Positions 8,330 to 31,080 of a stretch of 32,836 nucleotides of DNA are shown here, piece by piece. Numbering within the stretch: the stretch's first letter is position 1; the number at the start of each line of letters is the position of its first letter. The translations under genes were made by a program, and so were the position numbers. The notes beneath the pieces were generated by a model. It ran no database searches. It worked only from the letters and a program-made list of their open reading frames with translations, and had not been told where the DNA came from. Source of the stretch: Betaproteobacteria bacterium (lineage in GTDB: Bacteria > Pseudomonadota > Gammaproteobacteria > Burkholderiales > Burkholderiaceae_C); contig JAGWOZ010000013.1 in the NCBI GenBank assembly GCA_028870715.1, forward strand, positions 1-32,836, written 5' to 3'.

Positions 8330-10126
8330 TCAGCGCCGGCGCAGCCAAAGGCCGATGCGGATGAGCGCGTGGATCAGGACGCCTGCCAAGGCAAGCGCGG
8401 CAACGAGCAAGCCCAGGCGCTCGATCAGCGGCTGGTGGTCACGCGGCCGACCCGGCATGTAGACACCGTCGATGTTTTGCAACCGGCCCTGATCGGCGTG
8501 GCATTGCACGCACCGCAGCGCGTCTTCCTTCGGCGCCACCATGTGGGCAATCGGCCAATACATCTCCGTCTTCACAAACCCGTAATGCCCCGAATACGGC
8601 AGATGCGCGGCCTTCATGCCCGCGGCGATCGAGGTGTTCCAGTTGTAGTTCATCGTGTAGGAATCCTCGTCGAATCCAAACGAATGGAAGACGGCCAGGA
8701 TGCCTGTGCGCGTGTCATACGGCTGGTTGTTGTGATGGATCTTGAAGGGCCAGATCTTGGACTGGCCATCCGTGGGGCTGCCCTCGATGGCGTTGACCTG
8801 CACGACGCCGTTCTTCTCGTGGTTCTGGATTTTCTCCCCAATGTGCATCCAGGTTTCCGTGCCGTTGAACCAGCGGTACTGCGGCACCACGTTTTCAGCC
8901 CAGCGGAAGCTGCCTTTCACCCCCCAGTAGGTGTTCCAGCCACGCGCGTTCATGATGACCAGCGGTGAACCGTTGGGGGCCAGCTTGCCTGCGGTGGCGT
9001 AGTTCCAGTCCATCTTCGTCGGCAGCCCGCCACGTGCGAACTGCGGAATGTGGCAGGTCTCGCACGCAATATCGCGGGTGTGCATGTTCAGCGTCGACGC
9101 CACCAGGCTGGACTGCACGTTGTCGCCCGCGTGCGGCGCCTGGCCGTGGCAGGACTGGCAGGTCACGGCGTTGCCGTTGTGCGCCGCGCCGCGCATGTAC
9201 GCGCCCTGCTTGGGATCGGCATCGATCGCGTAATGCTCACCGCTGACGTTGTGGTCCGTCGTCTTGTGGCACTCCTGGCACGAAAAATTCAGGCCCTTGG
9301 CGTCCATGTGCACGTCAAGCGCACGCGGCGGGTCGTTCAGCGAGCTGTCGAGATCGCCGTGCTTGACGCCATTGCCCCCGCCTCCATAAAAGTGGCAGAT
9401 ACCGCATGTGTAGCGCGTGGGCGCCCCCACACGCTTGGCCACCGCAGCCAGATCCTCGGGCTCCACATAGGCCTTGTCGGTGCCGTAGACCTCGTTGCAG
9501 CCGGGCCGCACCGCGATCTTGGCCAGCGCCGGATTGCCCCCGATGAACGGAATCTTGCGGTAGGTCTTCGTCTTGTCATGGCACACCAGGCAATCCACAT
9601 GGTCCTCGGTGCGCTGGCTGAACGGGATGAACTTGTCCGGATCCTGGCTGCCATAACCGGCATGACAGACCGTGCAGAACTGCTCATTGCTCACGGGGCT
9701 TACGCAGAACGTGTTGTAGATCTCGTTCTTGCCCACCATCTGCTTGGTCTTCGGGTTCCACGCCTTCCAGGTCCAGTGGATGGTGGACATGACTTGCTTG
9801 GCAGCCTGCGTGTGGCAACTCAGGCACGCGCGGGTAACCTGCTCGGGGGATGTGAACGGGCCCTGAAGTTGTTTGAACTTGCTGTGGTCTTGCGGCGTCT
9901 GCGGCCCCACCGGGCCGTCCACTTCCTTGGGCACGACGTGCCAAGTTGGCGCGTCCGCCGGGCCCGCCGCATTGGCGTTGACGAATTGCTGGGCTGACTC
10001 GGCACCATACGCCGGCGCGCCCAGGGCGAGTAGCGTCGCGGCGAGCCAACCGATTGCCATGCGTGCCTTGCGCGCCAGGGACGTGCGATGCAAGCCCGAT
10101 GCGCTGCGCTGTGTGGCCAGTTCCAT
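8330..10126 (-). CDS. Octaheme c-type cytochrome, tetrathionate reductase (OTR) family
   Basis: Eight CXXCH motifs counted: CLSCH, CTVCH, CLVCH, CGICH, CQECH, CQSCH, CETCH, CVQCH; signal peptide from MELATQRS...; C-terminal TM helix. ORF-track extension to 10651 is an artefact. Confidence 0.9.
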   Translation of the reverse strand: MELATQRSASGLHRTSLARKARMAIGWLAATLLALGAPAYGAESAQQFVNANAAGPADAPTWHVVPKEVDGPVGPQTPQDHSKFKQLQGPFTSPEQVTRACLSCHTQAAKQVMSTIHWTWKAWNPKTKQMVGKNEIYNTFCVSPVSNEQFCTVCHAGYGSQDPDKFIPFSQRTEDHVDCLVCHDKTKTYRKIPFIGGNPALAKIAVRPGCNEVYGTDKAYVEPEDLAAVAKRVGAPTRYTCGICHFYGGGGNGVKHGDLDSSLNDPPRALDVHMDAKGLNFSCQECHKTTDHNVSGEHYAIDADPKQGAYMRGAAHNGNAVTCQSCHGQAPHAGDNVQSSLVASTLNMHTRDIACETCHIPQFARGGLPTKMDWNYATAGKLAPNGSPLVIMNARGWNTYWGVKGSFRWAENVVPQYRWFNGTETWMHIGEKIQNHEKNGVVQVNAIEGSPTDGQSKIWPFKIHHNNQPYDTRTGILAVFHSFGFDEDSYTMNYNWNTSIAAGMKAAHLPYSGHYGFVKTEMYWPIAHMVAPKEDALRCVQCHADQGRLQNIDGVYMPGRPRDHQPLIERLGLLVAALALAGVLIHALIRIGLWLRRR

Positions 10127-10200
10127 GAACGCCTCCTCGGATTGGGCGGATCGTTGTCCGCCTGTTTGTGTATTGGGTGCGTTGTAATACTGGTGCGGGT

Positions 10201-10242
10201 ATTTTGGAAAGGCCCCGACGAGCATCCTTTGATCCAGGTCAT
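10201..10242 (-). promoter_or_regulatory. Candidate FNR-type promoter of the octaheme cytochrome operon
   Basis: On the minus strand ATGAC-CTGG-ATCAA (10229-10242) and CAAAAT (10201-10206) separated by 22 bp, the spacing of a site centred at -41.5; ATG at 10126. Confidence 0.4.
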
Positions 10243-14730: not shown

Positions 14731-15075
14731 ATGACCCCCTTTTCGTCCCGATTGAACAAAATCCTGCTTGGCTCGCTGACGCTGGCTGCCATCCTCGCCG
14801 CCGCCAGCGCGCATGCCGAAACCGCCTGGGAACGCGCCCACCCGCGCCGCGACCAGGTGCTGGACCGCACCCAACATCTCAATCGCCGCATCGCCCGTGA
14901 GCGCCGGGAACGCGAACTGACGCCGGCACAGGCGCGCGCCCTGCACGGCGAAGTCCGCCAGACGCGGCTGGAGCAGGCCGCCATGGCGCGCGCCAATGGC
15001 GGCTTCATCACCAAGTCCCAGCAAGCGGGCCTCAACCAGCAGGAGAACGCCATCCGCCGCAGCGTCGGGCCGTAA
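14731..15075 (+). CDS. Small exported hypothetical protein (predicted periplasmic, helical, charged)
   Basis: MTPFSSRLNKILLGSLTLAAILAAASAHA^ETAWERAHPRRDQVLDRTQHLNRRIARERRERELTPAQARALHGEV...; clear signal peptide. Confidence 0.75.
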   Translation: MTPFSSRLNKILLGSLTLAAILAAASAHAETAWERAHPRRDQVLDRTQHLNRRIARERRERELTPAQARALHGEVRQTRLEQAAMARANGGFITKSQQAGLNQQENAIRRSVGP

Positions 15076-15250
15076 GCGACGCCCAGCGTCAGTGTCCAGG
15101 GCGCAGGGCGTCGCCGATGGCCTCAACCATCCGTCGATGCACGCACTTGATCTTCGACGGTGCTGGATGCGGCTTCGCAGGGACACGCGATCCCCCATTG
15201 GCACACCTTTGCGCCCCGGCCTGAACGCCGGACTTTCCGGGATTCAACTG

Positions 15251-17008
15251 ATGAACAAGCCTTTCATCCCTGCGCAACGCATCGCTCGCCGTGCGGGCGC
15301 CTTGTGGGCACTGGCCGCAGCGGGCGCATTGGCGCTTGCGGGCTGTGCGGCGCAGGCCGCGCCCTTGGGCTCCGCGCCGAGCGTGACGTCGGCTCGGCAC
15401 GAGGCAGCCGCCTTGAATGCGGCCGCGCGCCTTCATCCCGTCGCCTTTCTTGACCGCATTGGCTGGGGGGCAAGCGCTGCGCAATTGCAGGAGCTTTCCC
15501 GCGTCGGAGCCACCCGATTTCTGGATGAGGAACTGCGCCCCGACCCCGACCCGGTCCTTCCACCTGAGGTGCGTCAGCAGATCGCCGCCCTGCAGTGCAC
15601 GCAGCCCCTGAGCCAGCTCATTCCGCCGCTCGTGCGGCAGATGAAAGCCATTCAGCAAGCCCGGCGTGGGGGCCAGGCCATCAGCGCCCAGCAGGCACAG
15701 GCCGCGCTTCAGGCGCTGAATCAGCGCAAGAATCAGCTCACGCAGGAGGCGATGACCCAGCAACTGCTGCTGGCGGTGTACGCCCCCAACCAGTTGCAAC
15801 AGCGCCTGACGTGGTTCTGGCTCAACCATTTCAACGTGTTCCGCGGCGGCAACATCGGACCCATGATGGCTGACTACACCCAGCACGTCATCGCGCCGCG
15901 GGCGTTGGGCCCTTTCCGCGATCTGCTGCAGGCGACCATGTTTTCGCCGCAGATGCTGCTTTATCTGAACAACGCGCAAAACGCGCGCGGCCACGTCAAC
16001 GAAAACTATGCGCGCGAGGTGATGGAGTTGCATACGCTGGGCGTGGGCGGGGGCTACACGCAAACCGATGTGACCAATCTGGCACGCGCCCTCACCGGCC
16101 TGGGCGTCGATCTCAGCGAGCGCCCGGTGCGCGTGCGCCCGGCCCTGCGCGGTGAACTATGGCAACACGGTCTGGTCGTCTTCAACCCGGCGCGCCACGA
16201 TCCCGACCCCAAGGTTGTGCTCGGCCACGTGCTGCAGGGCCGCGGACTTGAGGAGATCGAACAGGTCATCACCCTGCTCGCCGACGATCCGGCTACGGCG
16301 CGGCATGTGAGCCTGGAGCTCGCCCAGTATTTTGTCGCCGACCACCCCGACCCGGCGATGGTCAACGCAATGGTGCAAACCTGGACACGCACGCGGGGCA
16401 ACATGGGCGCCGTCCTGCGCACCATGCTGACCAGCCCGCAATTTGCCGCCAGCCTGAGTGCGCCCCAGTTCAAGGACCCGATGCGCTACGTCGTGTCGGC
16501 CGCGCGCGCGAGCTTCAACGGACGCATCATCACGAACACCCAGCCGCTCATCGGCATGCTGTACAGGCTCGGCGAACCCCTGTACGGACGGCAAACGCCC
16601 GACGGCTATGCCCTGAGTGGCGGCGCCTGGGACAGCCCGGGCCAGCTGACCACCCGCTTTGAGGTGGCACAGCAAATCGGCGCTGGTGCCCCGGCGTTGT
16701 TCGGCCCCCCACCGCCCTTCCTGCGCACGCGCCTCGTAGTCGACCCCGCGGATGCGGCGGGCACCATGGGTGAGCCGGGCTCGGCCATGACCGCAGCAGG
16801 GGCAATGCTTGCACAAGGTGGGGCAACGCGCGACGTGCCGCCCAAACTGCCGCCGCGGCGTCCCCCGCCTGATCTGGCACGCAGCACGGTCTTTCTCGCG
16901 GCTGAGACCGATCTGGGACGGGCCACGCTGCAAGCCCTGGCCCAGACCGACCAGCGCATGCGCTGGAACGCCCTGTGGCTGTCCTCACCCGAGTTCATGA
17001 ACGACTGA
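15251..17008 (+). CDS. DUF1800 domain-containing putative lipoprotein
   Basis: MNKPFIPAQRIARRAGALWALAAAGALALAGCAAQ (lipobox); FLDRIGWGAS..., LTWFWLNHFNV, ENYAREVMELHTLGVGGGYTQTDVTNLARALTG are hallmark DUF1800 motifs. Confidence 0.9.
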   Translation: MNKPFIPAQRIARRAGALWALAAAGALALAGCAAQAAPLGSAPSVTSARHEAAALNAAARLHPVAFLDRIGWGASAAQLQELSRVGATRFLDEELRPDPDPVLPPEVRQQIAALQCTQPLSQLIPPLVRQMKAIQQARRGGQAISAQQAQAALQALNQRKNQLTQEAMTQQLLLAVYAPNQLQQRLTWFWLNHFNVFRGGNIGPMMADYTQHVIAPRALGPFRDLLQATMFSPQMLLYLNNAQNARGHVNENYAREVMELHTLGVGGGYTQTDVTNLARALTGLGVDLSERPVRVRPALRGELWQHGLVVFNPARHDPDPKVVLGHVLQGRGLEEIEQVITLLADDPATARHVSLELAQYFVADHPDPAMVNAMVQTWTRTRGNMGAVLRTMLTSPQFAASLSAPQFKDPMRYVVSAARASFNGRIITNTQPLIGMLYRLGEPLYGRQTPDGYALSGGAWDSPGQLTTRFEVAQQIGAGAPALFGPPPPFLRTRLVVDPADAAGTMGEPGSAMTAAGAMLAQGGATRDVPPKLPPRRPPPDLARSTVFLAAETDLGRATLQALAQTDQRMRWNALWLSSPEFMND

Positions 17009-17025
17009 CCGTCTGGGAGATCATC

Positions 17026-18234
17026 ATGCAACGTCGACACCTTATTCAAGCTGCGGCGCTGTCCCTGGCCGCGCCGATGGCCCGGCTCTGGGCCGCGCCC
17101 GCGCCCGGTGGGCCCAAGTTCATCCTGGTGTTCCTGCGCGGCGCCTACGACGCGACCAACGTCCTGGTGCCTTACGCGAGCGACTTCTATTACGAGGCAC
17201 GCCCCCACATTGCCGTACCGCGCCCGGGCACCGGCCCCGACGGCGCCATCCGGCTCGATGCCGACTGGGCGCTGCACCCGGCGCTGCAAGCGAGCATGCT
17301 GCCCCTGTGGCAGGCGGGCCAACTGGCGTTCGTGCCGTTTGCCGGCACCCGCGACATGACACGCAGCCACTTCGAGACGCAGGACCACATCGAACTCGGA
17401 CAGGGACCGCAGACCCGCGACTTCAACAGCGGCTTTCTCAACCGACTCGTGCAGCAACTCGGGCACCGCACGAGGCCCATGGCCTTCACGGCGCAACTGC
17501 CGCTGTCGCTGCGCGGGGCCGAACGCGTACCCAACATGGCCATGGGCCAGATCGCCCGCAGCGGCATCGACTCGCACCAGGAAGCGCTGCTTGAGCGCAT
17601 GTGGGGCACGACCCCCGAAGCCGCCTCGGTTCGCGAGGGCTTTGCCGTGCACGCCACGGTCATGCGTGACATGCAGGCCCAGGACTGGGAGGCCGAAATG
17701 ACGGCCGCCAGTCGCGGGGCGATTGATCCGCGCGGTTTCGTGGCCGAGGCCGCGCGGGTGGGCGGCCTGATGCGCGCAAGCTTCGACGTCGGTTTCATCG
17801 ACGTGGGCGGCTGGGATACCCATGTCAACGAAGCCGCTGCCAACGGCGCCAAGGGTCAACTCGCCGCGAAGCTCGGCGATCTGGGCCAGGGTCTGGCTGC
17901 CTTGGCCCAAGCCATGGGCCCGGCCTGGCGTGACACGGTGGTCGTGGTGCTGAGCGAGTTCGGGCGCACGTTCCGCGAAAACGGCAATCGCGGCACCGAC
18001 CACGGCCACGGCACGGTCTACTGGGTGCTGGGCGGTGCCGTGCGGGGCGGGCGAATCGTCGGCGAGCAAGTCCCGCTGGCGCCCGCCACCCTCAACCAGA
18101 ACCGCGATACCCCGGTGCTCACCGAGGACCGCAATGCGCTCGGCGGCCTGTTCGCTCGCCTTTGGGGGTTGAGCGCGCAACAGGTGCAAGCCGTATTCCC
18201 GGGCAGCGCGGCGCTGGACTTGCGCCTGGTCTGA
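17026..18234 (+). CDS. DUF1501 domain-containing protein (sulfatase-like fold)
   Basis: MQRRHLIQAAALSLAAPMARLWAAP...KFILVFLRGAYDATNVLVPYA...DVGGWDTHVNEA...VVVVLSEFGRTFRENGNRGTDHGHGTVYWVLGG: hallmark DUF1501; directly follows DUF1800. Confidence 0.92.
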   Translation: MQRRHLIQAAALSLAAPMARLWAAPAPGGPKFILVFLRGAYDATNVLVPYASDFYYEARPHIAVPRPGTGPDGAIRLDADWALHPALQASMLPLWQAGQLAFVPFAGTRDMTRSHFETQDHIELGQGPQTRDFNSGFLNRLVQQLGHRTRPMAFTAQLPLSLRGAERVPNMAMGQIARSGIDSHQEALLERMWGTTPEAASVREGFAVHATVMRDMQAQDWEAEMTAASRGAIDPRGFVAEAARVGGLMRASFDVGFIDVGGWDTHVNEAAANGAKGQLAAKLGDLGQGLAALAQAMGPAWRDTVVVVLSEFGRTFRENGNRGTDHGHGTVYWVLGGAVRGGRIVGEQVPLAPATLNQNRDTPVLTEDRNALGGLFARLWGLSAQQVQAVFPGSAALDLRLV

Positions 18235-19547: not shown

Positions 19548-19864
19548 CGTGGCCGCTTTCGAGAATGGTTGCGAGGTCCGGGCCGCATGGCGCAAGCGCT
19601 TGCAGTGCGATGGGCAGCCGGAGATTGCGACACTCCCGGTGCGCCATGTGGCATTGTGTGTGCACGCAGCCACCCGCATCAAGCGCTTTGCAAGCAAATC
19701 CCTCCAGGACTTCGCGTGGATTGGCGGCGCTCGGCGGTGGCGGCGCTCGGCGGCAGCGGATCGGTGCATCGGTGGGGATCCCGCGGCCGGCCCGTGGACT
19801 GCGTCGGTTAATCTTGCAAAAAACGGCGACCAACAGGACACTCCAGCCCGGGTGGAGACAAGAC

Positions 19865-20656
19865 ATGGATGCACGAGCAACACCGAGTTCGGCTTTGTAC
19901 CTGTTCGAGAAGTTCGAGGTGGGGGTGGTTCACCTCGACGCGCGGCGCACCGTGTTGGCCATGAACGATTTCGCACGCAAGGTCCTTCCCGTGGGTGAAA
20001 AGCAGCCATTCGACAAGCTCGTGGCGTCGTTTCACCCGGAGCGATCCAAACCGAAAGTCAATTTCCTCCTGGACGAGGCGTCGCGATGCCCGGTGGCCAA
20101 TGCCACGCCCATGACCATGATCATCAACATTCCCGAGCAGGTCCTGCTGATCAAGGTGACCCGGCTGGCCGACCATCTCGGCACCACGACCGGATTTGTC
20201 CTGGTCTTCTATGACGTCACACAGATCGTGACCAACGACGACACGGCACCCGAGTCGCTGCAGGCCAACCGCCGCCTCTCACGCATTCCCATGGTGGCGA
20301 ACCACAAGGTGGCGTTTGTCGATACGGCCGATGTGCTGTGCCTGGAATCGCAGGCTCACTACACCCGTGTCCTCACCCGGGACGGCTTGCATTTCTGCAA
20401 CCTCAGCATCGGCGACCTGGCGGCCCGACTCGACCCGGCACAGTTCATGCGCGTGCACCGCTGTTTCATCGTCAACTTGCAGGCCGTGGCCGAACTCGGT
20501 CGCGAAGGCAGCAAGACGCATATCGTGCTGCGCGGCAAGCACCCCGGGCCACCCATTCCGGTGGCGCGCGGCGAGGTGGCGCAGCTGCGCGCCGCGCTCG
20601 GGCTCCTGAAGCGGGCCCGCGGCGCCGCACCCAGCCCCGCGCCGGTCCCGATCTAG
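19865..20656 (+). CDS. rcoM: PAS-LytTR transcriptional regulator, probable heme CO sensor RcoM
   Basis: N-terminal PAS-like domain (ALYLFEKFEVGVVHLDARRTVLAMNDFARKVLP...) and C-terminal LytTR domain (VAFVDTADVLCLESQAHYTRVLTRDG...FMRVHRCFIVNLQAVAEL); located immediately upstream of coxMSL; His57/Cys75/Met85 could match the heme ligands known in RcoM. Confidence 0.85.
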   Translation: MDARATPSSALYLFEKFEVGVVHLDARRTVLAMNDFARKVLPVGEKQPFDKLVASFHPERSKPKVNFLLDEASRCPVANATPMTMIINIPEQVLLIKVTRLADHLGTTTGFVLVFYDVTQIVTNDDTAPESLQANRRLSRIPMVANHKVAFVDTADVLCLESQAHYTRVLTRDGLHFCNLSIGDLAARLDPAQFMRVHRCFIVNLQAVAELGREGSKTHIVLRGKHPGPPIPVARGEVAQLRAALGLLKRARGAAPSPAPVPI

Positions 20657-20863: not shown

Positions 20864-21727
20864 ATGATCCCACCGCGTTTCGAGTACCACGCGCCTCGCT
20901 CCCTCAGCGAAGCCGTGGCCCTGCTGGGCCAGCTCGGCTCGGAAGCCAAGCTGCTTGCAGGCGGCCACAGCCTGTTGCCCATGATGAAGCTGCGCTTTGC
21001 CGAGCCTGCGCACTTGATCGACATCAACCGCATCCCCGAGCTGCGCGGCATCCGCGAAGACGGGACCACAGTGGTGATCGGCGCCATGACGGTCGAGCAC
21101 GCCTTGATCACCTCGCCGGTCGTGCAGGCCAAAGTGCCGCTGCTGGCCGAAGCCGCCACCCAGATTGCCGATCCCCAGGTGCGCAACCGCGGCACGATCG
21201 GCGGCGATATCGCCCATGGCGACCCTGGCAACGACCACCCGGCCCTGTCCATTGCACTGGAAGCATCCTTCGTGCTTGAAGGCCCCGACGGGCGCCGCAC
21301 GGTGCCAGCCGACGGGTTCTTTCTCGGCCCCTACATGACGCAACTGCAGGAAAACGAAGTCCTGTGCGAAATCCGCGTGCCTGCCTTCGCACACGGCACG
21401 GGGTGGGCCTACGAGAAACTCAAGCGCAAAACCGGTGACTGGGCCACGGCCGGCTGCGCAGTGGTCATGCGCAAGAGCGGCGGCACGATCAGCCACGTGC
21501 GCATCGCTCTGACCAATGTGGCGCCCACCGCGCTGCGTGCCGAGGCCGCCGAGAGCGCGCTGCTGAACCAGCCGCTGAACGCCGCCACGCTGCAGGCGGC
21601 CGCCGATGCGGCCGCCGCCATCTGCGAGCCTGCCGAAGACCTGCGGGGCGACGTGGAATACAAAACCGCCATGGCCGGCCAGATGGTCAAGCGCGCCCTG
21701 TCCAAAGCCTGGTCCCGTTGTGCCTGA
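20864..21727 (+). CDS. coxM: Aerobic carbon monoxide dehydrogenase, medium (FAD) subunit
   Basis: MIPPRFEYHAPRSLSEAVALLGQLGSEAKLLAGGHSLLPMMKLRFAEPAHLIDI...ADPQVRNRGTIGGDIAHGDPGND: FAD-binding CoxM/XdhB motifs (AGGHSLLP, TIGG). Confidence 0.96.
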   Translation: MIPPRFEYHAPRSLSEAVALLGQLGSEAKLLAGGHSLLPMMKLRFAEPAHLIDINRIPELRGIREDGTTVVIGAMTVEHALITSPVVQAKVPLLAEAATQIADPQVRNRGTIGGDIAHGDPGNDHPALSIALEASFVLEGPDGRRTVPADGFFLGPYMTQLQENEVLCEIRVPAFAHGTGWAYEKLKRKTGDWATAGCAVVMRKSGGTISHVRIALTNVAPTALRAEAAESALLNQPLNAATLQAAADAAAAICEPAEDLRGDVEYKTAMAGQMVKRALSKAWSRCA

Positions 21728-21748: not shown

Positions 21749-22240
<492 letters not shown>

Positions 22241-22283: not shown

Positions 22284-24695
22284 ATGAATGCACCAGTACC
22301 AACCGCCGAAGCCCGCGAACTTGCGCTGGCCGGCATGGGCGCCTCACGCCTGCGCAAGGAAGATGCCCGATTCATCCAGGGCAAGGGCAACTACGTCGAC
22401 GACATCAAGATGCCCGGCATGCTGCACATGGACATCGTGCGCTCGCCCGTGGCCCACGCTCGCATCAAAAAGATCAACAAGGACGCGGCGCTGGCGATTC
22501 CGGGCGTGCACGCGGTGCTGACCGCCGATGATCTCAAGCCCCTGAAGCTGCACTGGATGCCGACCCTGGCGGGCGACGTGGCAGCCGTGCTTGCCGATGA
22601 AAAGGTGCATTTCCAGATGCAGGAAGTGGCGATCGTGATCGCCGACGACCGCTACATCGCCGCCGATGCCGTGGAAGCCGTCGAGATCGAATACGACGAG
22701 CTGCCCGTGGTGCTCGACCCCTACGCCGCGCTGGCGCCCGACGCCCCGGTGCTGCGCGAAGACCTGGCGGGCAAGACCGAAGGCGCGCACGGCAAGCGCG
22801 AGCATCCGAACCACATCTTCACCTGGGACGCCGGCGACAAGGCCGCTGCAGATGCGGCTTTCGACGCCGCGGCGGTGAAGGTCTCGCAGCACATGTATTA
22901 CCCCCGCGTGCACCCCTGCCCGCTGGAAACCTGCGGCTGCGTGGCCAGCTTCGATCCAATCCGCGGCGAGCTGACCACCTACATGACGTCCCAGGCGCCC
23001 CATGTGGTGCGCACCGTGGTGTCCATGCTCTCGGGCATTCCCGAGTCCAAGGTGCGCATTGTCAGCCCCGACATCGGTGGGGGATTCGGCAACAAGGTCG
23101 GTGTCTATCCCGGTTACGTGTGCGCCATCGTCGCCTCCATCGTGCTCGGGCGCCCGGTGAAGTGGGTGGAGGACCGCATCGAGAACATTTCCTCCACCGC
23201 CTTTGCCCGTGACTACCACATGGATGGGGAGATCGCTGCCACGGCCGACGGCAAGATCACCGGCCTTCGCGTGAACGTGGTGGCCGACCATGGCGCGTTT
23301 GACGCTTGCGCCGATCCCACGAAATTCCCGGCCGGCATGTTCCACATCTGCTCGGGCAGCTACGACATTCCGGCGGCCTATGCCAGCGTCAAGGGCGTGT
23401 ACACGAACAAGGCGCCGGGTGGCGTGGCCTACCGCTGCAGCTTCCGCGTCACCGAAGCGGTCTATCTGGTCGAGCGCATGGTCGACGTGCTGGCGCAAAA
23501 GCTGGGCATGGACAAGGCGGAGATTCGCGCCAAGAACTTCATCCGCAAGGAACAGTTCCCGTACACCAGCGCCTTCGGTTTTGAATACGACTCGGGCGAC
23601 TATCACACCGCGCTGAAAAAGGTGCTCGACGCGGTCGACTACCCGGCGCTGCGCGCCGAGCAGGCCGCCAAGCGCGCCGACCCCAACAGCCCCACGCTCA
23701 TGGGTATCGGTCTGGTCACCTTCACCGAGGTGGTGGGCGCCGGCCCGAGCAAGATGTGCGACATCCTGGGCGTGGGCATGTTCGATTCCTGCGAAATCCG
23801 CGTCCACCCCACCGGCAGCGCGATTGCGCGCATGGGCACGATCACGCAAGGTCAGGGGCACCAGACCACCTACGCGCAGATCATCGCCACGGAGCTTGGA
23901 ATCCCCAGCGAGGTGATTCAGGTCGAGGAAGGCGACACGAGCACGGCGCCCTATGGTCTTGGCACCTACGGCTCGCGCTCCACGCCCGTAGCCGGTGCAG
24001 CCATTGCCATGGCCGCGCGCAAGATCCATGCAAAGGCCAGGAAGATCGCCGCACACATGCTGGAAGTCAACGAAAACGACCTGGACTGGGAAGTCGATCG
24101 CTTCAAGGTCAAGGGGGACGATAGCAAGTTCAAGACCATGGCCGATGTGGCCTGGCAGGCCTACCACCAGCCCCCCGAGGGCATGGAGCCCGGCCTGGAA
24201 GCGGTGCACTACTACGACCCGCCGAACTTCACGTTTCCCTTCGGCATCTACCTGTGCGTCCTGGACATTGATCGCGGCACGGGCGAGACCAAGATCCGCC
24301 GTTTCTATGCCCTGGACGACTGCGGCACGCGCATCAACCCGATGATCATCGAAGGCCAGATCCACGGTGGTCTGACCGAGGGCTTCGCCGTGGCCATGGG
24401 CCAGCAGATGCCCTTCGACGCGCAGGGCAATTTGTTGGGCAATACGCTCATGGACTACTTCCTGCCCACCTTCGTGGAGACGCCGCATTGGGACACCGAC
24501 CACACCGTCACGCCCTCGCCGCACCATCCCATCGGGGCCAAGGGCGTGGCCGAGTCCCCGCATGTGGGCTCCATCCCGACTTTCACCTCGGCGGTGGTGG
24601 ATGCGTTCTCCCATTTGGGCATGACCCACATGGACATGCCCCACAACGCGTTTCGCGTCTGGAAAGAACTCAAGGCCCACGGTGCCACCCTCTGA
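22284..24695 (+). CDS. coxL: Aerobic carbon monoxide dehydrogenase, large (Mo-Cu) subunit, form I
   Basis: 803 aa molybdopterin-binding family; form I motif AYRCSFR at 23427-23447 (Cys is codon 385); PDIGGGFGNKVGVYPGY, GQGHQTTYAQI, GAKGVAESPHVGSIP. Confidence 0.97.
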   Translation: MNAPVPTAEARELALAGMGASRLRKEDARFIQGKGNYVDDIKMPGMLHMDIVRSPVAHARIKKINKDAALAIPGVHAVLTADDLKPLKLHWMPTLAGDVAAVLADEKVHFQMQEVAIVIADDRYIAADAVEAVEIEYDELPVVLDPYAALAPDAPVLREDLAGKTEGAHGKREHPNHIFTWDAGDKAAADAAFDAAAVKVSQHMYYPRVHPCPLETCGCVASFDPIRGELTTYMTSQAPHVVRTVVSMLSGIPESKVRIVSPDIGGGFGNKVGVYPGYVCAIVASIVLGRPVKWVEDRIENISSTAFARDYHMDGEIAATADGKITGLRVNVVADHGAFDACADPTKFPAGMFHICSGSYDIPAAYASVKGVYTNKAPGGVAYRCSFRVTEAVYLVERMVDVLAQKLGMDKAEIRAKNFIRKEQFPYTSAFGFEYDSGDYHTALKKVLDAVDYPALRAEQAAKRADPNSPTLMGIGLVTFTEVVGAGPSKMCDILGVGMFDSCEIRVHPTGSAIARMGTITQGQGHQTTYAQIIATELGIPSEVIQVEEGDTSTAPYGLGTYGSRSTPVAGAAIAMAARKIHAKARKIAAHMLEVNENDLDWEVDRFKVKGDDSKFKTMADVAWQAYHQPPEGMEPGLEAVHYYDPPNFTFPFGIYLCVLDIDRGTGETKIRRFYALDDCGTRINPMIIEGQIHGGLTEGFAVAMGQQMPFDAQGNLLGNTLMDYFLPTFVETPHWDTDHTVTPSPHHPIGAKGVAESPHVGSIPTFTSAVVDAFSHLGMTHMDMPHNAFRVWKELKAHGATL

Positions 24696-24722: not shown

Positions 24723-25334
24723 ATGGAAGTCAAACTCGATAAACGGTACCCGCTGGATGTGGATCCCGGACGCGCCTGGGCGATCCTGAGCGACCTCCGG
24801 GCCGTGGCTGCCTGCATGCCCGGTGCCGAACTCACCGAACAACTCTCCGACACGTCCTACAAGGGCGGGGTGCGGGTGAAGGTGGGGCCGGCCGTGGCCC
24901 AGTTCGGCGGCACGGTGGACGTGGTGGACAAGGACGACACCGCCCACAAGATGGTGCTGCGCGGCAAGGGCGCCGACAAGGGTGGGTCCTCGGCTTCGAT
25001 GGACCTTGCAGCGGCCATCGAGCCCGACCCGGCCAACGCGGCGCACGCGGTCCTGCATGGCGACTCCACCGTCATCGTCAACGGCAAATTCGCCCAATTC
25101 GGCGGGCGCATGATGGTCTCGGTCTCCGAGATGCTGCTGGCGCAGTTCGTGGAGAACTTCCGCCAGGCCGCCCTCGCCTTGCCCGCACCCACGGGCGCGG
25201 GCACGCCCGACGCCGCCTCCCAAGCCCCTGCGCCCGCAGCGGCGCCGAAGGTGGCGCGCGAGATCAACGGGCTGGCCATCGTCTGGGCTCTCATCAGGAA
25301 CTGGTGGCTTGGCCTGTTTGCCAAGCGCACCTGA
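24723..25334 (+). CDS. coxG: CoxG family SRPBCC protein with C-terminal hydrophobic segment
   Basis: MEVKLDKRYPLDVDPGRAWAILSDLRAVAACMPGAELTEQLSDTSYKGGVRVKVGPAVAQFGGTV: CoxG signature; C-terminal INGLAIVWALIRNWWLGLF. Confidence 0.93.
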   Translation: MEVKLDKRYPLDVDPGRAWAILSDLRAVAACMPGAELTEQLSDTSYKGGVRVKVGPAVAQFGGTVDVVDKDDTAHKMVLRGKGADKGGSSASMDLAAAIEPDPANAAHAVLHGDSTVIVNGKFAQFGGRMMVSVSEMLLAQFVENFRQAALALPAPTGAGTPDAASQAPAPAAAPKVAREINGLAIVWALIRNWWLGLFAKRT

Positions 25335-25347
25335 GCGGCCTCAAACC

Positions 25348-26283
25348 ATGGCCAGCTCGATCCCACCCCTGGATGAACGCGCGCTGCGCGAGCAGTTGCA
25401 GCGGGTGGGCTACCTGGCTGATGCCGATCTGGCCACCACGGTGTGGCTTGCCCAGAAGCTTCAACGCCCGCTCCTGATCGAAGGCGATGCGGGCGTGGGC
25501 AAGACCGCGCTGGCCACGGCGCTGGCGGCCGCGCAGGGGGCCGAGCTGGTGCGGCTGCAGTGTTTCGAGGGGCTTGATCTGGCGCAGGCCGCCTATGAGT
25601 GGAACTACGGGCGCCAGCTCATGGCCATCCGCCTGCATGAAGGGCGAGGCGACGCGGTGCGCGAATCCGACGTGTTTGCGCGCGACTTCCTGCTCGAGCG
25701 CCCCTTGCTCAAGGCCATCAGCCAGCGAGGGCCCTGCGTGCTGCTGATCGACGAGATCGACCGGGCCGACGAAGCTTTCGAGGCCTTCTTGCTGGAGGTT
25801 CTGGCGGACTACCAGATCACGGTGCCGGAGATCGGCACCATCCGCGCGCAGCATATCCCGCAGGTCATCCTCACCAGCAACGGCACCCGCGAGCTCTCCG
25901 ACGCGCTGCGCCGCCGCTGCCTGTACCACTATCTGGACTACCCCACGGTGGCGCGCGAAGTGGCGATCGTCAAGACCGCCGTTCCCGAGGCCGACACCCG
26001 GCTGGTGGAGGAGTGCGTGCAGTTCGTGCAGCGCCTGCGCCATGAAGACCTGGCCAAGACGCCAGGCATCGCCGAGACCCTGGACTGGGTGCGCGCGCTG
26101 CACCAACTCAACCAGCACACCCTGCCCGACGACATGGCCGTGCTGCTGACCACGCTGGGATGTCTGCTCAAGACCCGCGAGGATCGGTTCTTGCTGACTG
26201 GCGAACGTGCGTTGCAGCTGGTGGAGGGACGGCGCACGGTGGGTGTTGCCGAAAAAGCCGATACGGTGATCGCTGGACCATGA
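25348..26283 (+). CDS. coxD: MoxR-type AAA+ ATPase CoxD (CODH cofactor maturation)
   Basis: Walker A EGDAGVGKTALA, Walker B CVLLIDEIDRADEAFEAFLLEVL, sensor TSNGTRELSDALRRRCLYHYLDYP; position after coxG. Confidence 0.94.
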   Translation: MASSIPPLDERALREQLQRVGYLADADLATTVWLAQKLQRPLLIEGDAGVGKTALATALAAAQGAELVRLQCFEGLDLAQAAYEWNYGRQLMAIRLHEGRGDAVRESDVFARDFLLERPLLKAISQRGPCVLLIDEIDRADEAFEAFLLEVLADYQITVPEIGTIRAQHIPQVILTSNGTRELSDALRRRCLYHYLDYPTVAREVAIVKTAVPEADTRLVEECVQFVQRLRHEDLAKTPGIAETLDWVRALHQLNQHTLPDDMAVLLTTLGCLLKTREDRFLLTGERALQLVEGRRTVGVAEKADTVIAGP

Positions 26284-27464
26284 ATCCGACGCGCACGCAA
26301 CACGCGGTACCCCCCGGCCAAAGCCTGGCGGGTTTTGCCAGCATGTTGCGCGACCACGGCATGAAGGTTGGCGTGGCCGAGCAGCAGGCCATGCTGCAGG
26401 CCGCCCTCGCCCTCGGCGCCTTAAAGGGTGATCAGCTGCGCGCTGCGTGGCGCGCCATCGCGTGCCACGGTGCGCGGGACTGGCACCAATGGCCTGAACT
26501 CTTCGAGCGCTACTGGTATGCGCACCGGCTCAAGGGCCAGATCCGCGTCAGCGGCCACACGCGCGCCTCGCGCGACCTGCGCCAGGCGGTGCAAAGCCTG
26601 CATGAGCAGATGCAGCGTTCAGAGTCCGGCAGCGCGCCAGGCAAAGCGGCGCCGCTGTCTGCCAGCGAGGCTGGCGCCACCAGCGCACCCACCGACGACA
26701 CCGGGAGCCCGCGCGCCATGGGGGGCGCCAGCAGCACCGAAGCGCTCCACCAGCGCGATGGACAGATGTGGCTTCCGCAGGAGCTCGGCGCGCTGCAGCA
26801 GCTGGCGCGCCGGATCACGGCGCAGCTGCGGCCGCGTCTGACCCGGCGCTGGCGCACGGCGCAGCCAGGTCAGCGTCTGGACCTGCGCCAGACGCTGCGC
26901 CGCAGCGTGGCATGGGGCGGGCAGCCGCTGCGCCCGGCCTGGCAGGTGCAGCGGCGCGAAACGCCGCGTCTGTTCATCCTGGCCGATGTGAGCCGCTCCA
27001 TGGAGTCGCACGCACCGCTGTTCCTGCGCATTGCGCGTGCCTTCGCCGTGGCCGCCCAGGCGCGCGTGTTCGTCTTCCATGTGCGACTGGCCGAGATCAC
27101 CCCCCTGATGCAGCGCGACTCGCCGGCGATCCAGGAAAAGATCAATGCCGTAACCGCGGGTTTTGGCGCCGGCACGCGCATTGCCCACAGCCTGCAGGAC
27201 TTTGTGCGCGTGCACGCGCGCGCCCAGCTCAACTGCGGCTCCCGTGTCTGGATTTTCTCCGACGGCTTCGACACCGCCGAGCCCGATGCGCTGCCCGCAG
27301 CGCTGCGCGCGGTGCGCGCCCACGGTGCGCGCATCACCTGGTTTCACCCCACGCGTGAGGTGCCGGCGGCCGCTGCGCTGCAGCGCTCGCGCATCTGCGT
27401 GGACCGCTTCATTCCCCTGGCGCGTCTGAGCGACCTCGCCGCCGCGCGCCCCTTGCTGCACTGA
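26280..27464 (+). CDS. coxE: von Willebrand factor A domain protein CoxE
   Basis: LFILADVSRSMESHAPLFLRIARAF (MIDAS DxSxS) and RVWIFSDGFDTAEP; ATGA overlap with coxD. Confidence 0.93.
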   Translation: MNPTRTQHAVPPGQSLAGFASMLRDHGMKVGVAEQQAMLQAALALGALKGDQLRAAWRAIACHGARDWHQWPELFERYWYAHRLKGQIRVSGHTRASRDLRQAVQSLHEQMQRSESGSAPGKAAPLSASEAGATSAPTDDTGSPRAMGGASSTEALHQRDGQMWLPQELGALQQLARRITAQLRPRLTRRWRTAQPGQRLDLRQTLRRSVAWGGQPLRPAWQVQRRETPRLFILADVSRSMESHAPLFLRIARAFAVAAQARVFVFHVRLAEITPLMQRDSPAIQEKINAVTAGFGAGTRIAHSLQDFVRVHARAQLNCGSRVWIFSDGFDTAEPDALPAALRAVRAHGARITWFHPTREVPAAAALQRSRICVDRFIPLARLSDLAAARPLLH

Positions 27465-27494: not shown

Positions 27495-28487
27495 ATGAAC
27501 ACCTCCGCATGGATCAACGCCGCAGCCCGGCTGCAGGCCCAGCAACAGCCCTTTGCCCTTGTCTCCGTACTGCGCGTGCAGCCCCCCGCGTCGGCCCGCG
27601 CCGGCGACAAGGCCCTGGTCACCGCTGAGGGGGCCATTCACGGCTGGATCGGGGGCGGCTGCGCCCAGCCGGCGGTCATCAAAACCGTGCGCCAGGCGCT
27701 GGCCGACGGGCTCCCGCGCACCATCCGCATCGCCCCCACCGACACCACCGTCGAGCGCACGCTGGGCGATGTGCTCGAGTTCGGCATGGCGTGCCATTCG
27801 GGCGGCACGCTCGAGCTCTTCATCGATCCGGTGCTGCCCGCGCCCCGCCTGATGGTGCTTGGGGACTCGCCTGTGGCACGTGCGCTGGCGGCGCTGGCGC
27901 CGCGCGTGGGGTTTTCGGTCTCGGTGGTCGCTGAGGGTGCGGCCGCAGCGGACTTCCCCGACGCTGAACAGGTCGTGGCCACAGACAACGCCACCAGCGT
28001 GCGCGAAGCGCTGCCCACACCAGCCTTTGCCGTCGTGGCGACCCAGGGCCGACGCGACCTGCAGGCGCTGAAGGCCGCGCTCGGCGTGCGGCCCGGGCGA
28101 CTGTGGTTTGTGGCCAGCGCGCGCAAGGCCGCGGTGCTCAGACAAAGCCTCATCGCCGGCGGTGAAGATGCGCAACAGGTTGCGGCCATCGTGGCCCCTG
28201 CGGGCGAACATATCGGCGCGCAAACCCCCGAGGAGATCGCACTGTCGGTCCTGGCAGCGGTGGTGGCCGCACGCCGCGTACCCGCGCACGCCACCGCGGA
28301 GCCTGCAGCCGAGCCGCTGCCGGCCACGGCCGTCGTCACGGTGCCAGAGCCTGCGGCGCCAGCCCATTCCTGCTGTGGCGGTGCGGCGAAGCAAGCCGCC
28401 GCAGCCATGGCGCAAGCCGCTGGGGCGGCGGTCGGGGCCGACGCGCCTGCTGCGGCTGCCCCGAAAACCTCCTGCTGCGGGGGCTGA
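27495..28487 (+). CDS. coxF: XdhC/CoxF family maturation protein with twin SCCGG C-terminal motifs
   Basis: XdhC-type N-domain (GAIHGWIGGGCAQPAV), Rossmann domain (RLMVLGDSPVARALAALAPRVGFSVSVV); tail ...AHSCCGGAAKQ...KTSCCGG-stop. Confidence 0.9.
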   Translation: MNTSAWINAAARLQAQQQPFALVSVLRVQPPASARAGDKALVTAEGAIHGWIGGGCAQPAVIKTVRQALADGLPRTIRIAPTDTTVERTLGDVLEFGMACHSGGTLELFIDPVLPAPRLMVLGDSPVARALAALAPRVGFSVSVVAEGAAAADFPDAEQVVATDNATSVREALPTPAFAVVATQGRRDLQALKAALGVRPGRLWFVASARKAAVLRQSLIAGGEDAQQVAAIVAPAGEHIGAQTPEEIALSVLAAVVAARRVPAHATAEPAAEPLPATAVVTVPEPAAPAHSCCGGAAKQAAAAMAQAAGAAVGADAPAAAAPKTSCCGG

Positions 28488-28493
28488 GGCACC

Positions 28494-29174
28494 ATGGGTT
28501 GCATTCTCAAAGGAGGCGGCGGGCTGTACAGCCGGCTCGCCGTAGGAGCGGTGCTGCTGGCCGCAGGCTCGGGTTCACGCATGGGTCATCGACCGAAAAG
28601 CCTGCTGGAGCTCGGCGGCGTACCCCTGATCCGGCGCCAGATCATTGCGCTGTCGGGCGCCGGTGTGGACGAGTTGGTCGTGGTGCTGGGCCACCACGCG
28701 CAGCGCATCGAGCAGGCCGTGCAGGAATTTCCGGTCACGATCGTGCACAACCCGCAGCCCGATGCGGGGCAGGTGTCGTCGCTGCGCCTGGGCCTGCAGG
28801 CCTTGTCGTCCAAACTCGACGCGGTGCTGGTGGCGCTGGCCGACCAGCCGCTGATTCATGCGCAGGACATCACCGATCTGATTGGCGCGTACAAGAAGCG
28901 TCCGGCGCCCGCCCAGGTCGTGCAGCCCACGGTGGATGGCCAGCCGGGAAATCCCGTGATGTTCAGCGCCGCCGTGCGCGAGCAGATCCTCAACGGCGAC
29001 GTCCGCATCGGCTGCCGCCAGTGGCAAGCCGCGCACCCCGATGAAGTGCAGCACTGGGCAACGACGAACCAGCGCTACCGCATCGACGTGGATACCCCGG
29101 AGGACATCGAAGCCCTGGCGCAGCGCACAGGGCACCAGCTGCGCTGGCCGGCGGACCTCGCGCGCTCGGCGTGA
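28494..29174 (+). CDS. mocA: MobA/MocA-like nucleotidyltransferase (molybdenum cofactor cytidylyltransferase)
   Basis: AVLLAAGSGSRMGHRPKSLLELGGVPLIRRQI...LVALADQPLI...GQPGNPVMFSAAVREQI...YRIDVDTPEDIEAL. Confidence 0.92.
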   Translation: MGCILKGGGGLYSRLAVGAVLLAAGSGSRMGHRPKSLLELGGVPLIRRQIIALSGAGVDELVVVLGHHAQRIEQAVQEFPVTIVHNPQPDAGQVSSLRLGLQALSSKLDAVLVALADQPLIHAQDITDLIGAYKKRPAPAQVVQPTVDGQPGNPVMFSAAVREQILNGDVRIGCRQWQAAHPDEVQHWATTNQRYRIDVDTPEDIEALAQRTGHQLRWPADLARSA

Positions 29175-29884
29175 CCGGCTCCGTCATGCTCACACCCGCT
29201 CCAATGCTCCCGCTGTGGCCCACGCCGCTGGGTCTGCACCGTCTTGCGCAAGCCGAGTCAGTCAACACCCTGCTGGTGCGGGTCTTTCAGGCCATGCGTG
29301 CCACCGATCCGCATGCGCCGCAGGACAAGCGCGCGTTCTATGCCAGTGGCGACGACCTGCTTGAGCGCATCCACCTTCCCGAGTGGGACACGCTTGTGCG
29401 TTTCCTCGTCGACAGCGTGCGCCAGACCGTCGTGCTGGCAAACCAGGGAGCCTGGCCCGTGGCCACACCCGGCCTGCAGATCGCCCTGCGCGGGATGTGG
29501 TTCCAGATCACCAGCCAGGGCAGCCACCATGACGTGCATACCCACGGCAATTGCTCGTGGTCGGGCGTGTACTGCGTGCAGGTGGACCCCGAAGCGCAAC
29601 GCACAGCGCATCCGGTTCTGGGCGCAAGCAACGGCATGACGCGCTTTTATGGTCCCCACTTCAACCATCTGGGAGGTGCCCACATGGATTTCGGCAACGC
29701 CTACCTACTCTCGCCCCATCTTGATGTGCCGCCCTTGCCAGGGCAGCTGGTCGTGTTCCCGTCCTGGCTTGCGCACCAGGCCATGCCCTATGCGGGCGAG
29801 GCCGAGCGCATCATCGTGTCCTTCAACGCCAGCGTGCATGCGACCTCGGGCTCCGATCAGCTGCATGCCTACGCCGATGCGTGA
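29171..29884 (+). CDS. Putative 2OG-Fe(II) oxygenase (TIGR02466-like)
   Basis: GSHHDVHTHGNCSWSGVYCVQVDPE...PLPGQLVVFPSWLAHQAMPYAGEAERIIVSFNASVH: HxH...H...R pattern of this family; GTG start overlaps mocA stop (GTGA), or ATG at 29186. Confidence 0.82.
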   Translation: MTGSVMLTPAPMLPLWPTPLGLHRLAQAESVNTLLVRVFQAMRATDPHAPQDKRAFYASGDDLLERIHLPEWDTLVRFLVDSVRQTVVLANQGAWPVATPGLQIALRGMWFQITSQGSHHDVHTHGNCSWSGVYCVQVDPEAQRTAHPVLGASNGMTRFYGPHFNHLGGAHMDFGNAYLLSPHLDVPPLPGQLVVFPSWLAHQAMPYAGEAERIIVSFNASVHATSGSDQLHAYADA

Positions 29885-30075: not shown

Positions 30076-31080
30076 ATGATGAATAGCGTCGACATCGAAG
30101 TCATGCGCACCGCGCTGCAATGGCTTGACAAGGGCCACCGGGTCACGCTCGGCACGGTGGTGCGCACCTGGGGTTCGGCGCCGCGTCCGCCAGGCTCGCT
30201 CATGATCATCCGTGACGACGGGCAGGTGGCCGGTTCCGTGTCAGGCGGCTGCATCGAGGATGACCTCATCGAGCGCGTGGCGCGCGGGGAGCTGGCATTG
30301 CGCAAGCCCGAGGTCACGACCTATGGGCAAACCGCCGAGGAGGTGCGCCGCTTCGGCCTGCCCTGCGGCGGTACGGTGCAGATCGTGCTGGAGCCGCTGG
30401 GGCCGCACTCGCAACTGCGTGAGCTGCTGGTGGACATTGAGCGCCGCCACCGCGTGCAGCGGCGCATGGACCTGAATACAGGCCTCGTCCACCTGGAGCC
30501 GGCGCTCGACGGCGACCGCGTGACGTTCGACGGCGCCCATCTCGTGACCGTGCACGGCCCGCGCCTGCGCCTGCTCATCATCGGCGGCGGACAGCTCTCG
30601 CGTTACCTGGCATCGATGGCGGTGATGATCGACTATCAGGTCACGGTGTGCGAGCCGCGCACCGAATATCACGAAGGCTGGGATGAACTGCCCGGCGTCA
30701 CGTTGTCCACCCTGATGCCCGACGACCTTGTGCTGGCCATGAACCTGGACCACAACAGTGCGGTGGTCGCGGTCACGCATGACCCCAAGCTCGACGACCT
30801 GGCGCTCATGGAGGCGCTGCGCACCCCGGCGTTCTATGTGGGCGCGTTGGGATCCATGCACAACAACACCAAGCGCCGGGAGCGTTTGCTGCAGTTTGAC
30901 GTCAGCGCCGAGGAAGCCGCACGCCTGCGCGGGCCGGTTGGATTGCGCCTGGGTGCGCTGACGCCGCCCGAGATCGCCATGAGCATCGTGGCCGAAATGA
31001 CCGCGATGCGCCGCGGGGTCGACTTGAGCCAGCCGTTGGTTCGGTGGGAGGCGTCAACCACTATCTGCGCCCTGGCCTGA
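30076..31080 (+). CDS. coxI: XdhC/CoxI family protein (CODH Mo-cofactor maturation)
   Basis: MMNSVDIEVMRTALQWLDKGHRVTLGTVVRTWGSAPRPPGSLMIIRDDGQVAGSVSGGCIEDDL and C-terminal RLRLLIIGGGQLSRYLASMA...FYVGALGSMHNNTKRRERL: both XdhC/CoxI domains. Confidence 0.93.
   Translation: MMNSVDIEVMRTALQWLDKGHRVTLGTVVRTWGSAPRPPGSLMIIRDDGQVAGSVSGGCIEDDLIERVARGELALRKPEVTTYGQTAEEVRRFGLPCGGTVQIVLEPLGPHSQLRELLVDIERRHRVQRRMDLNTGLVHLEPALDGDRVTFDGAHLVTVHGPRLRLLIIGGGQLSRYLASMAVMIDYQVTVCEPRTEYHEGWDELPGVTLSTLMPDDLVLAMNLDHNSAVVAVTHDPKLDDLALMEALRTPAFYVGALGSMHNNTKRRERLLQFDVSAEEAARLRGPVGLRLGALTPPEIAMSIVAEMTAMRRGVDLSQPLVRWEASTTICALA

Follow-up and report, generated by a model that had tools for sequence, protein, structure and literature searches.

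Within a cluster of cox genes for a form I carbon monoxide (CO) dehydrogenase, the stretch of DNA analysed here (32,836 nucleotides at its full length, hereafter the window) carries a gene for a putative oxygenase of the TIGR02466/PF13759 family, which to our knowledge is uncharacterised and has no known function. This raises the question of why such a gene should stand among the genes that build a molybdenum-copper enzyme, and on what its product would act. The initial annotation had guessed at either a hydroxylase, with a CO dehydrogenase subunit, a maturation protein or a cofactor intermediate as its substrate, or an unrelated hitchhiker. Our results support a hydroxylase of form I CO dehydrogenase and narrow the guess to one residue, since on balance they lean towards an enzyme whose most likely task would be the 4-hydroxylation of Arg384 in the large subunit, CoxL. 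What we infer here is the activity, its dependence on 2-oxoglutarate (2OG), the substrate, the residue and any consequence for the active site.

The oxygenase gene and its cox cluster

As first described, the oxygenase lies between mocA and coxI in the CO dehydrogenase cluster. We find coxMSL-G-D-E-F upstream and an XdhC/CoxI-type gene downstream (Table 1), and the window CoxL belongs to form I by its match to TIGR02416 (1559 bits, cut-off 991). The oxygenase frame is open at 29171-29884 (+) when counted from GTG 29171, and contains both sequence patterns on which the family had been recognised (HTHG...SGVYCVQ and FPSWLAHQ...ER..VSFN). Profile search confirmed the family, the protein reaching 78.1 bits with TIGR02466 (curated cut-off 62.5) and 65.2 bits with PF13759 2OG-FeII_Oxy_5 (curated cut-off 27). 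Moreover, dN/dS values of 0.12-0.22 against relatives indicate purifying selection and thus a maintained gene, and about 56 columns of the oxygenase alignment are invariant.

Translational coupling through GTG 29171, which overlaps the mocA stop, is possible on paper, but the overlap is absent in a 92%-identical relative (L001), where the first oxygenase start is an ATG 12 nt past the mocA stop, equivalent to ATG 29186 in the window. The true start is therefore probably ATG 29186. Because almost every relative has the oxygenase packed tightly 3′ of mocA, some distant ones with an ATGA or GTGA overlap, co-transcription with mocA appears likely. On the other side, the coxI frame 5′ of MNSVDIE is not conserved and contains a stop in relatives, so that GTG 29881 probably opens a spurious extension and coxI has its conserved start at ATG 30079; judged by this comparison, the contact between oxygenase and coxI is not real, and a spacer of ~194 bp separates them. 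Note that many Limnohabitans/Hydrogenophaga loci, as well as L005, differ from the window in having ~1.1 kb of extra DNA between the oxygenase and coxI, where a further gene is possible. Upstream of the cox cluster, the window contains genes for a DUF1800 and, after it, a DUF1501 protein (14996-18234, +), and a LytTR-domain protein is encoded directly 5′ of coxM (19565-20656, +), in the same place as in most relatives. The latter could be a CO-sensing regulator of the RcoM type, as reported for related clusters (PMC11771112).

Table 1. Positions in the window of the cox genes, the oxygenase gene and its predicted functional residues (residue numbers of the oxygenase counted from GTG 29171)
Feature	Position	Strand	Remarks
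coxM (FAD subunit)	20864..21727	+	
coxS ([2Fe-2S] subunit)	21749..22240	+	
coxL, form I CO dehydrogenase large subunit	22284..24695	+	collinear with H. pseudoflava CutL (1FFU), ~92-93% identity
codons of proposed target Arg384 and catalytic Cys385	23433..23438	+	CoxL loop GGVAYRCSFR
coxG	24723..25334	+	
coxD (MoxR-type AAA+ ATPase)	25309..26283	+	limits of the ORF as listed
coxE (VWA domain)	26160..27464	+	limits of the ORF as listed
coxF (XdhC family)	27495..28487	+	
mocA-like molybdenum cofactor cytidylyltransferase (NTP transferase)	28494..29174	+	directly 5′ of the oxygenase in 79/79 testable relatives
cox-linked TIGR02466/PF13759 oxygenase gene	29186..29884	+	232 aa from ATG 29186; profile matches, conserved ATG, dN/dS
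predicted metal motif H123-T-H125	29537..29545	+	invariant in clade; in place of HxD
predicted distal metal ligand H202	29774..29776	+	invariant
predicted 2OG-binding R213 (H-x10-R...SFN)	29807..29809	+	invariant
coxI/XdhC-like gene	30079..31080	+	start probably 30079; no overlap with oxygenase

Predicted fold and metal site

An AlphaFold (AF2) model of the oxygenase (pLDDT 81.7, pTM 0.82) was compared with known structures by Foldseek, and the top matches of this predicted model, 3bvc (E 2e-11) and 2rg4, place it in the double-stranded beta-helix fold; the complex of the Pseudomonas putida prolyl hydroxylase (P4H) with EF-Tu and numerous PHD2 structures came next, while a sequence-only search of the PDB gave 2rg4/3bvc alone as plausible relatives. 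H202 and R213 stand at the spacing expected for a distal histidine followed by a 2OG-binding arginine, which would fit the usual arrangement in such enzymes as far as the sequence can tell. In contrast, the canonical HxD/E...H facial triad is not seen: H123-x-H125, placed at the canonical HxD by position and alignment, gives H-x-H in the cox-linked clade, and most generic TIGR02466 members likewise have H-x-H, with HxD found only in the outlier L173, whose histidine aligns with H123. No PF13640 protein with the canonical HxD was found for comparison in the window's own genome. The label of 2OG-Fe(II) oxygenase thus stands as regards family and fold, but not as regards the canonical motif, and because HxH takes the place of HxD, 2OG dependence is not assured; the fold and R213 nevertheless suggest that the enzyme would use this co-substrate.

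Association with form I coxL

In the 80 closest database loci by oxygenase similarity, mocA lies directly upstream in 79, the remaining one beginning at a contig end, and 74 of these 80 best loci contain other cox genes within their own stretch. Since these loci had been picked by oxygenase similarity, unbiased genome draws were added, namely 200 relatives, 200 alphaproteobacteria and 310 Burkholderiales (710 genomes, with slight overlap between the three draws). Some of the named loci and genomes in the draw of relatives are the same organisms, so that locus counts and genome counts must not be summed. Altogether, 24 strong oxygenase copies were detected in the 710 genomes, all 24 in genomes with form I coxL and 23 within the cluster. 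Among the 200 relatives, coxL is present in 29 and a strong oxygenase match in 22 (325-420 bits, the next best at 43.5 bits), and every one of these 22 copies belongs to a coxL genome, against 0/171 in genomes without coxL (Fisher 1.4e-23, a value uncorrected for kinship between related genomes, which are not independent); the copies lie in the cox cluster, or beside mocA/coxF where coxL is on another contig. The 200 alphaproteobacteria, all of one family, include 27 genomes with coxL and a single strong oxygenase match (344.6 bits, next 40.8), in a coxL genome (G1060) where the oxygenase is on a different contig from the cox cluster; being closest to a Caballeronia copy, it was probably transferred. 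On that contig (L174, contig C14 of G1060), the copy at 9531-10238 (-) has oxidase-like genes and what is probably a gene for a tRNA thiouridylase nearby. The 310 Burkholderiales added one further strong match, inside the cox cluster of G1271.

Plasmids extended the survey beyond Pseudomonadota. Of 19 plasmid records with coxL, one, from Deinococcus, carries the oxygenase (47% identity, 70.2 bits against TIGR02466) between coxG and xdhC, in a rearranged cluster that reads coxMSL-coxG-oxy-xdhC-coxD-coxE. MocA is absent there, which argues that it is not required as a partner of the oxygenase. The neighbourhood survey proposed with the initial annotation therefore found a recurrent and specific association with form I coxL that crosses phyla, and this attempt at refutation failed. 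It should be noticed that all 28 rows of the search profile are cox-linked, so that a distant clade without such linkage could be missed.

The oxygenase is not found in all form I clusters and is rather an optional addition. It is absent from plasmid pHCG3 of Oligotropha carboxidovorans (Afipia), which agrees with the earlier view that it stands outside the Oligotropha cox set, and three close relatives of that organism (CoxL 95-98% identical) gave no TIGR02466 match genome-wide; nor was the oxygenase found in the sampled clusters of alphaproteobacteria, or in those of gammaproteobacteria other than Burkholderiales. In the GTDB family to which the window belongs, the coxL genomes G022, G024, G069 and G073 are without it (the cluster of G024 ends at a contig end), and their CoxL proteins are close to oxygenase-bearing ones; G045, whose cluster is interrupted by N, was left out of this presence/absence count. 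Mapped on the CoxL tree, presence and absence require four changes vs 28 in shuffles, so that the oxygenase passes on together with the cluster, with losses now and then.

The history of the protein itself is consistent with this picture. In a tree that also held 17 further TIGR02466 proteins of plasmid and genomic origin, the twelve cox-type oxygenases (including those of Deinococcus, G1060 and G1271) grouped in one clade (support 100/100), whose branch measures 2.0 changes per column and which has the signature HDxHxHGNCSWSG; the plasmid-borne TIGR02466 members inspected lie outside cox clusters. The correlation of distances was higher between oxygenase and CoxL (rho 0.81) than between CoxL and mocA (0.73). 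In a phage collection, 133 records, almost all cyanophages, contain TIGR02466-like proteins with at most 32% identity to the window protein. No link between TIGR02466 and CO dehydrogenase was found in the open-access literature.

The active-site arginine of CoxL as the probable target

Hydroxyarginine beside the catalytic cysteine was reportedly seen in a crystal structure published in 2000, and Haenzelmann is said to have contrasted in that year the modified enzyme of Hydrogenophaga pseudoflava with that of O. carboxidovorans, which lacks the modification. We know of no enzyme that makes the hydroxyarginine of CO dehydrogenase. Three later papers (PMC3750175, PMC4938201, PMC11603075) describe 4-hydroxyarginine at the active site of the large subunit of H. 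pseudoflava, and in two of these the residue directly precedes the catalytic Cys385; their passages on the modification name no enzyme that produces it. In sequence numbering, the modified residue is Arg384 and the catalytic one Cys385.

On the CoxL tree, H. pseudoflava stands beside the oxygenase-bearing L033 (97% identical) in a supported set of seven, the six other members of which all bear the oxygenase, while O. carboxidovorans falls in an oxygenase-free clade. By this bracketing H. pseudoflava itself would carry the gene; the best CoxL among 28 genomes of the window's genus is 93% identical to 1FFU, and none of them is thus H. pseudoflava. Arg384 is invariant in 106/106 CoxL rows with or without the oxygenase gene, which makes covariation at this position impossible and is as expected for an optional modification. 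Columns 331 and 346 of CoxL alone differ loosely with oxygenase loss, and two columns are too few for interpretation. Note that the loop variants SYRCSFR and AYRCSLR occur in form I CoxL (L062, L114, L115, L120, L133 and L136-L140), so that surveys requiring AYXCSFR would miss such proteins.

The core of our argument is that an orphan modification matches an orphan, cox-restricted hydroxylase, and two orphans are thus joined, a hydroxyarginine without a maker and an oxygenase family without a function. In the mechanism that we propose, the oxygenase would bind Fe(II) and 2-oxoglutarate in its jelly-roll fold, recognise the CoxL active-site loop GGVAYR384C385SFR before or during maturation, and hydroxylate C-gamma (C4) of Arg384, the neighbour of the cysteine to which the Mo-S-Cu cluster is later attached. 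The product would be 4-hydroxyarginine as in the H. pseudoflava enzyme, and the modification would be optional, the arginine staying unmodified in clusters without the oxygenase gene. Points that speak against this proposal are the HxH motif, the lack of covariation at Arg384, the G1060 copy away from its cox cluster, and the oxygenase-free genomes G022, G024, G069 and G073 with their closely related CoxL proteins.

Alternative explanations

The same neighbourhood evidence links the oxygenase to the cox system and not to a single residue, and would also suit a cox-dedicated hydroxylase with another target, either a different residue of CoxL, CoxM or CoxS or one of the maturation proteins (CoxG, CoxD, CoxE, an XdhC-type chaperone), the hydroxyarginine being made otherwise. 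Genes for CoxG, CoxD, CoxE and XdhC-type proteins are indeed common to the betaproteobacterial and Deinococcus clusters. However, the only hydroxylation on record in this enzyme family belongs to a protein whose close relatives bear the oxygenase gene, so that to posit a further target that nobody has observed is less parsimonious; we consider such a target unlikely, albeit credible. Action on the MCD-Mo cofactor, or on some small molecule that it requires such as a copper or sulfur carrier, is improbable in our view: the oxygenase adjoins mocA in Burkholderiales, but in Deinococcus it stands beside coxG and xdhC with mocA absent, many form I clusters without it presumably build the same cofactor, and the nearest solved structures outside its own family are protein hydroxylases.

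The modification of Arg384 might also arise without any enzyme, as a by-product of the Mo/Cu site and O2, in which case the oxygenase does something else. The arginine is adjacent to the copper-binding cysteine, and the modification is known from the crystal structures of one species; yet in O. carboxidovorans the enzyme, whose loop and chemistry are the same, reportedly lacks it, and the distribution of the oxygenase gene fits an enzymatic origin instead, which leaves this explanation very improbable. To regard the gene as an unrelated hitchhiker or as a passenger without effect seems scarcely credible, even though many cox clusters are without it and some of the close relatives have lost it, since its cox association is recurrent, specific and cross-phylum: all 24 strong copies are in coxL genomes (one of them unlinked), the Deinococcus arrangement is independent, and the selection and invariant columns described above point the same way.

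Implications and relation to known systems

Returning to the 4-hydroxylation of Arg384, we tentatively suggest, as an idea about as open to doubt as to belief, that an arginyl-4-hydroxylase dedicated to CO dehydrogenase would be the first function of TIGR02466, one that would use a three-histidine (HxH...H) metal site and tune the Mo-Cu loop in one branch of form I. If true, form I CO dehydrogenases would be of two kinds, with the active-site arginine modified or not, which would bear on copper affinity, CO affinity and O2 tolerance, as well as on the choice of accessory genes when CO dehydrogenase is produced in other hosts (syngas use, CO sensing).

Compared with known systems, the window protein is closest to TIGR02466/PF13759, including PDB 2RG4 and 3BVC, with which it shares the profile, the closest fold and the H-x-H ... 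H ... R...SFN residues, and from which it differs by its own long-branch, signature-bearing clade and its cox linkage. Protein prolyl hydroxylases (PHD2; P. putida P4H-EF-Tu, 4IW3) share the jelly-roll fold of the predicted model (Foldseek E ~1e-7 to 1e-8), but they are only 12-17% identical to the window protein and their substrate is a proline as against the proposed arginine. PHD2 and P. putida P4H act on protein loops or tails with a canonical HxD...H site, whereas the window protein has HxH...H. The reaction proposed here is that of the arginyl hydroxylases YcfD (3-OH-Arg81 of ribosomal L16), KDM4E (4-OH-Arg of H2a) and NDUFAF5 (an arginine of NDUFS7), all from families other than TIGR02466 and none known to be tied to CO dehydrogenase; NDUFAF5 moreover has a SAM-dependent fold and is not a 2OG enzyme. 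The arginine site of NDUFS7 is described as resembling the CoxL loop (PMC4938201). Finally, in O. carboxidovorans, whose own cluster is without the oxygenase, CoxD, CoxE, CoxF and CoxG are thought to mature the [CuSMoO2] site (PMC4240915, PMC3471820), and these are accessory genes of the cox cluster, as the oxygenase is here.
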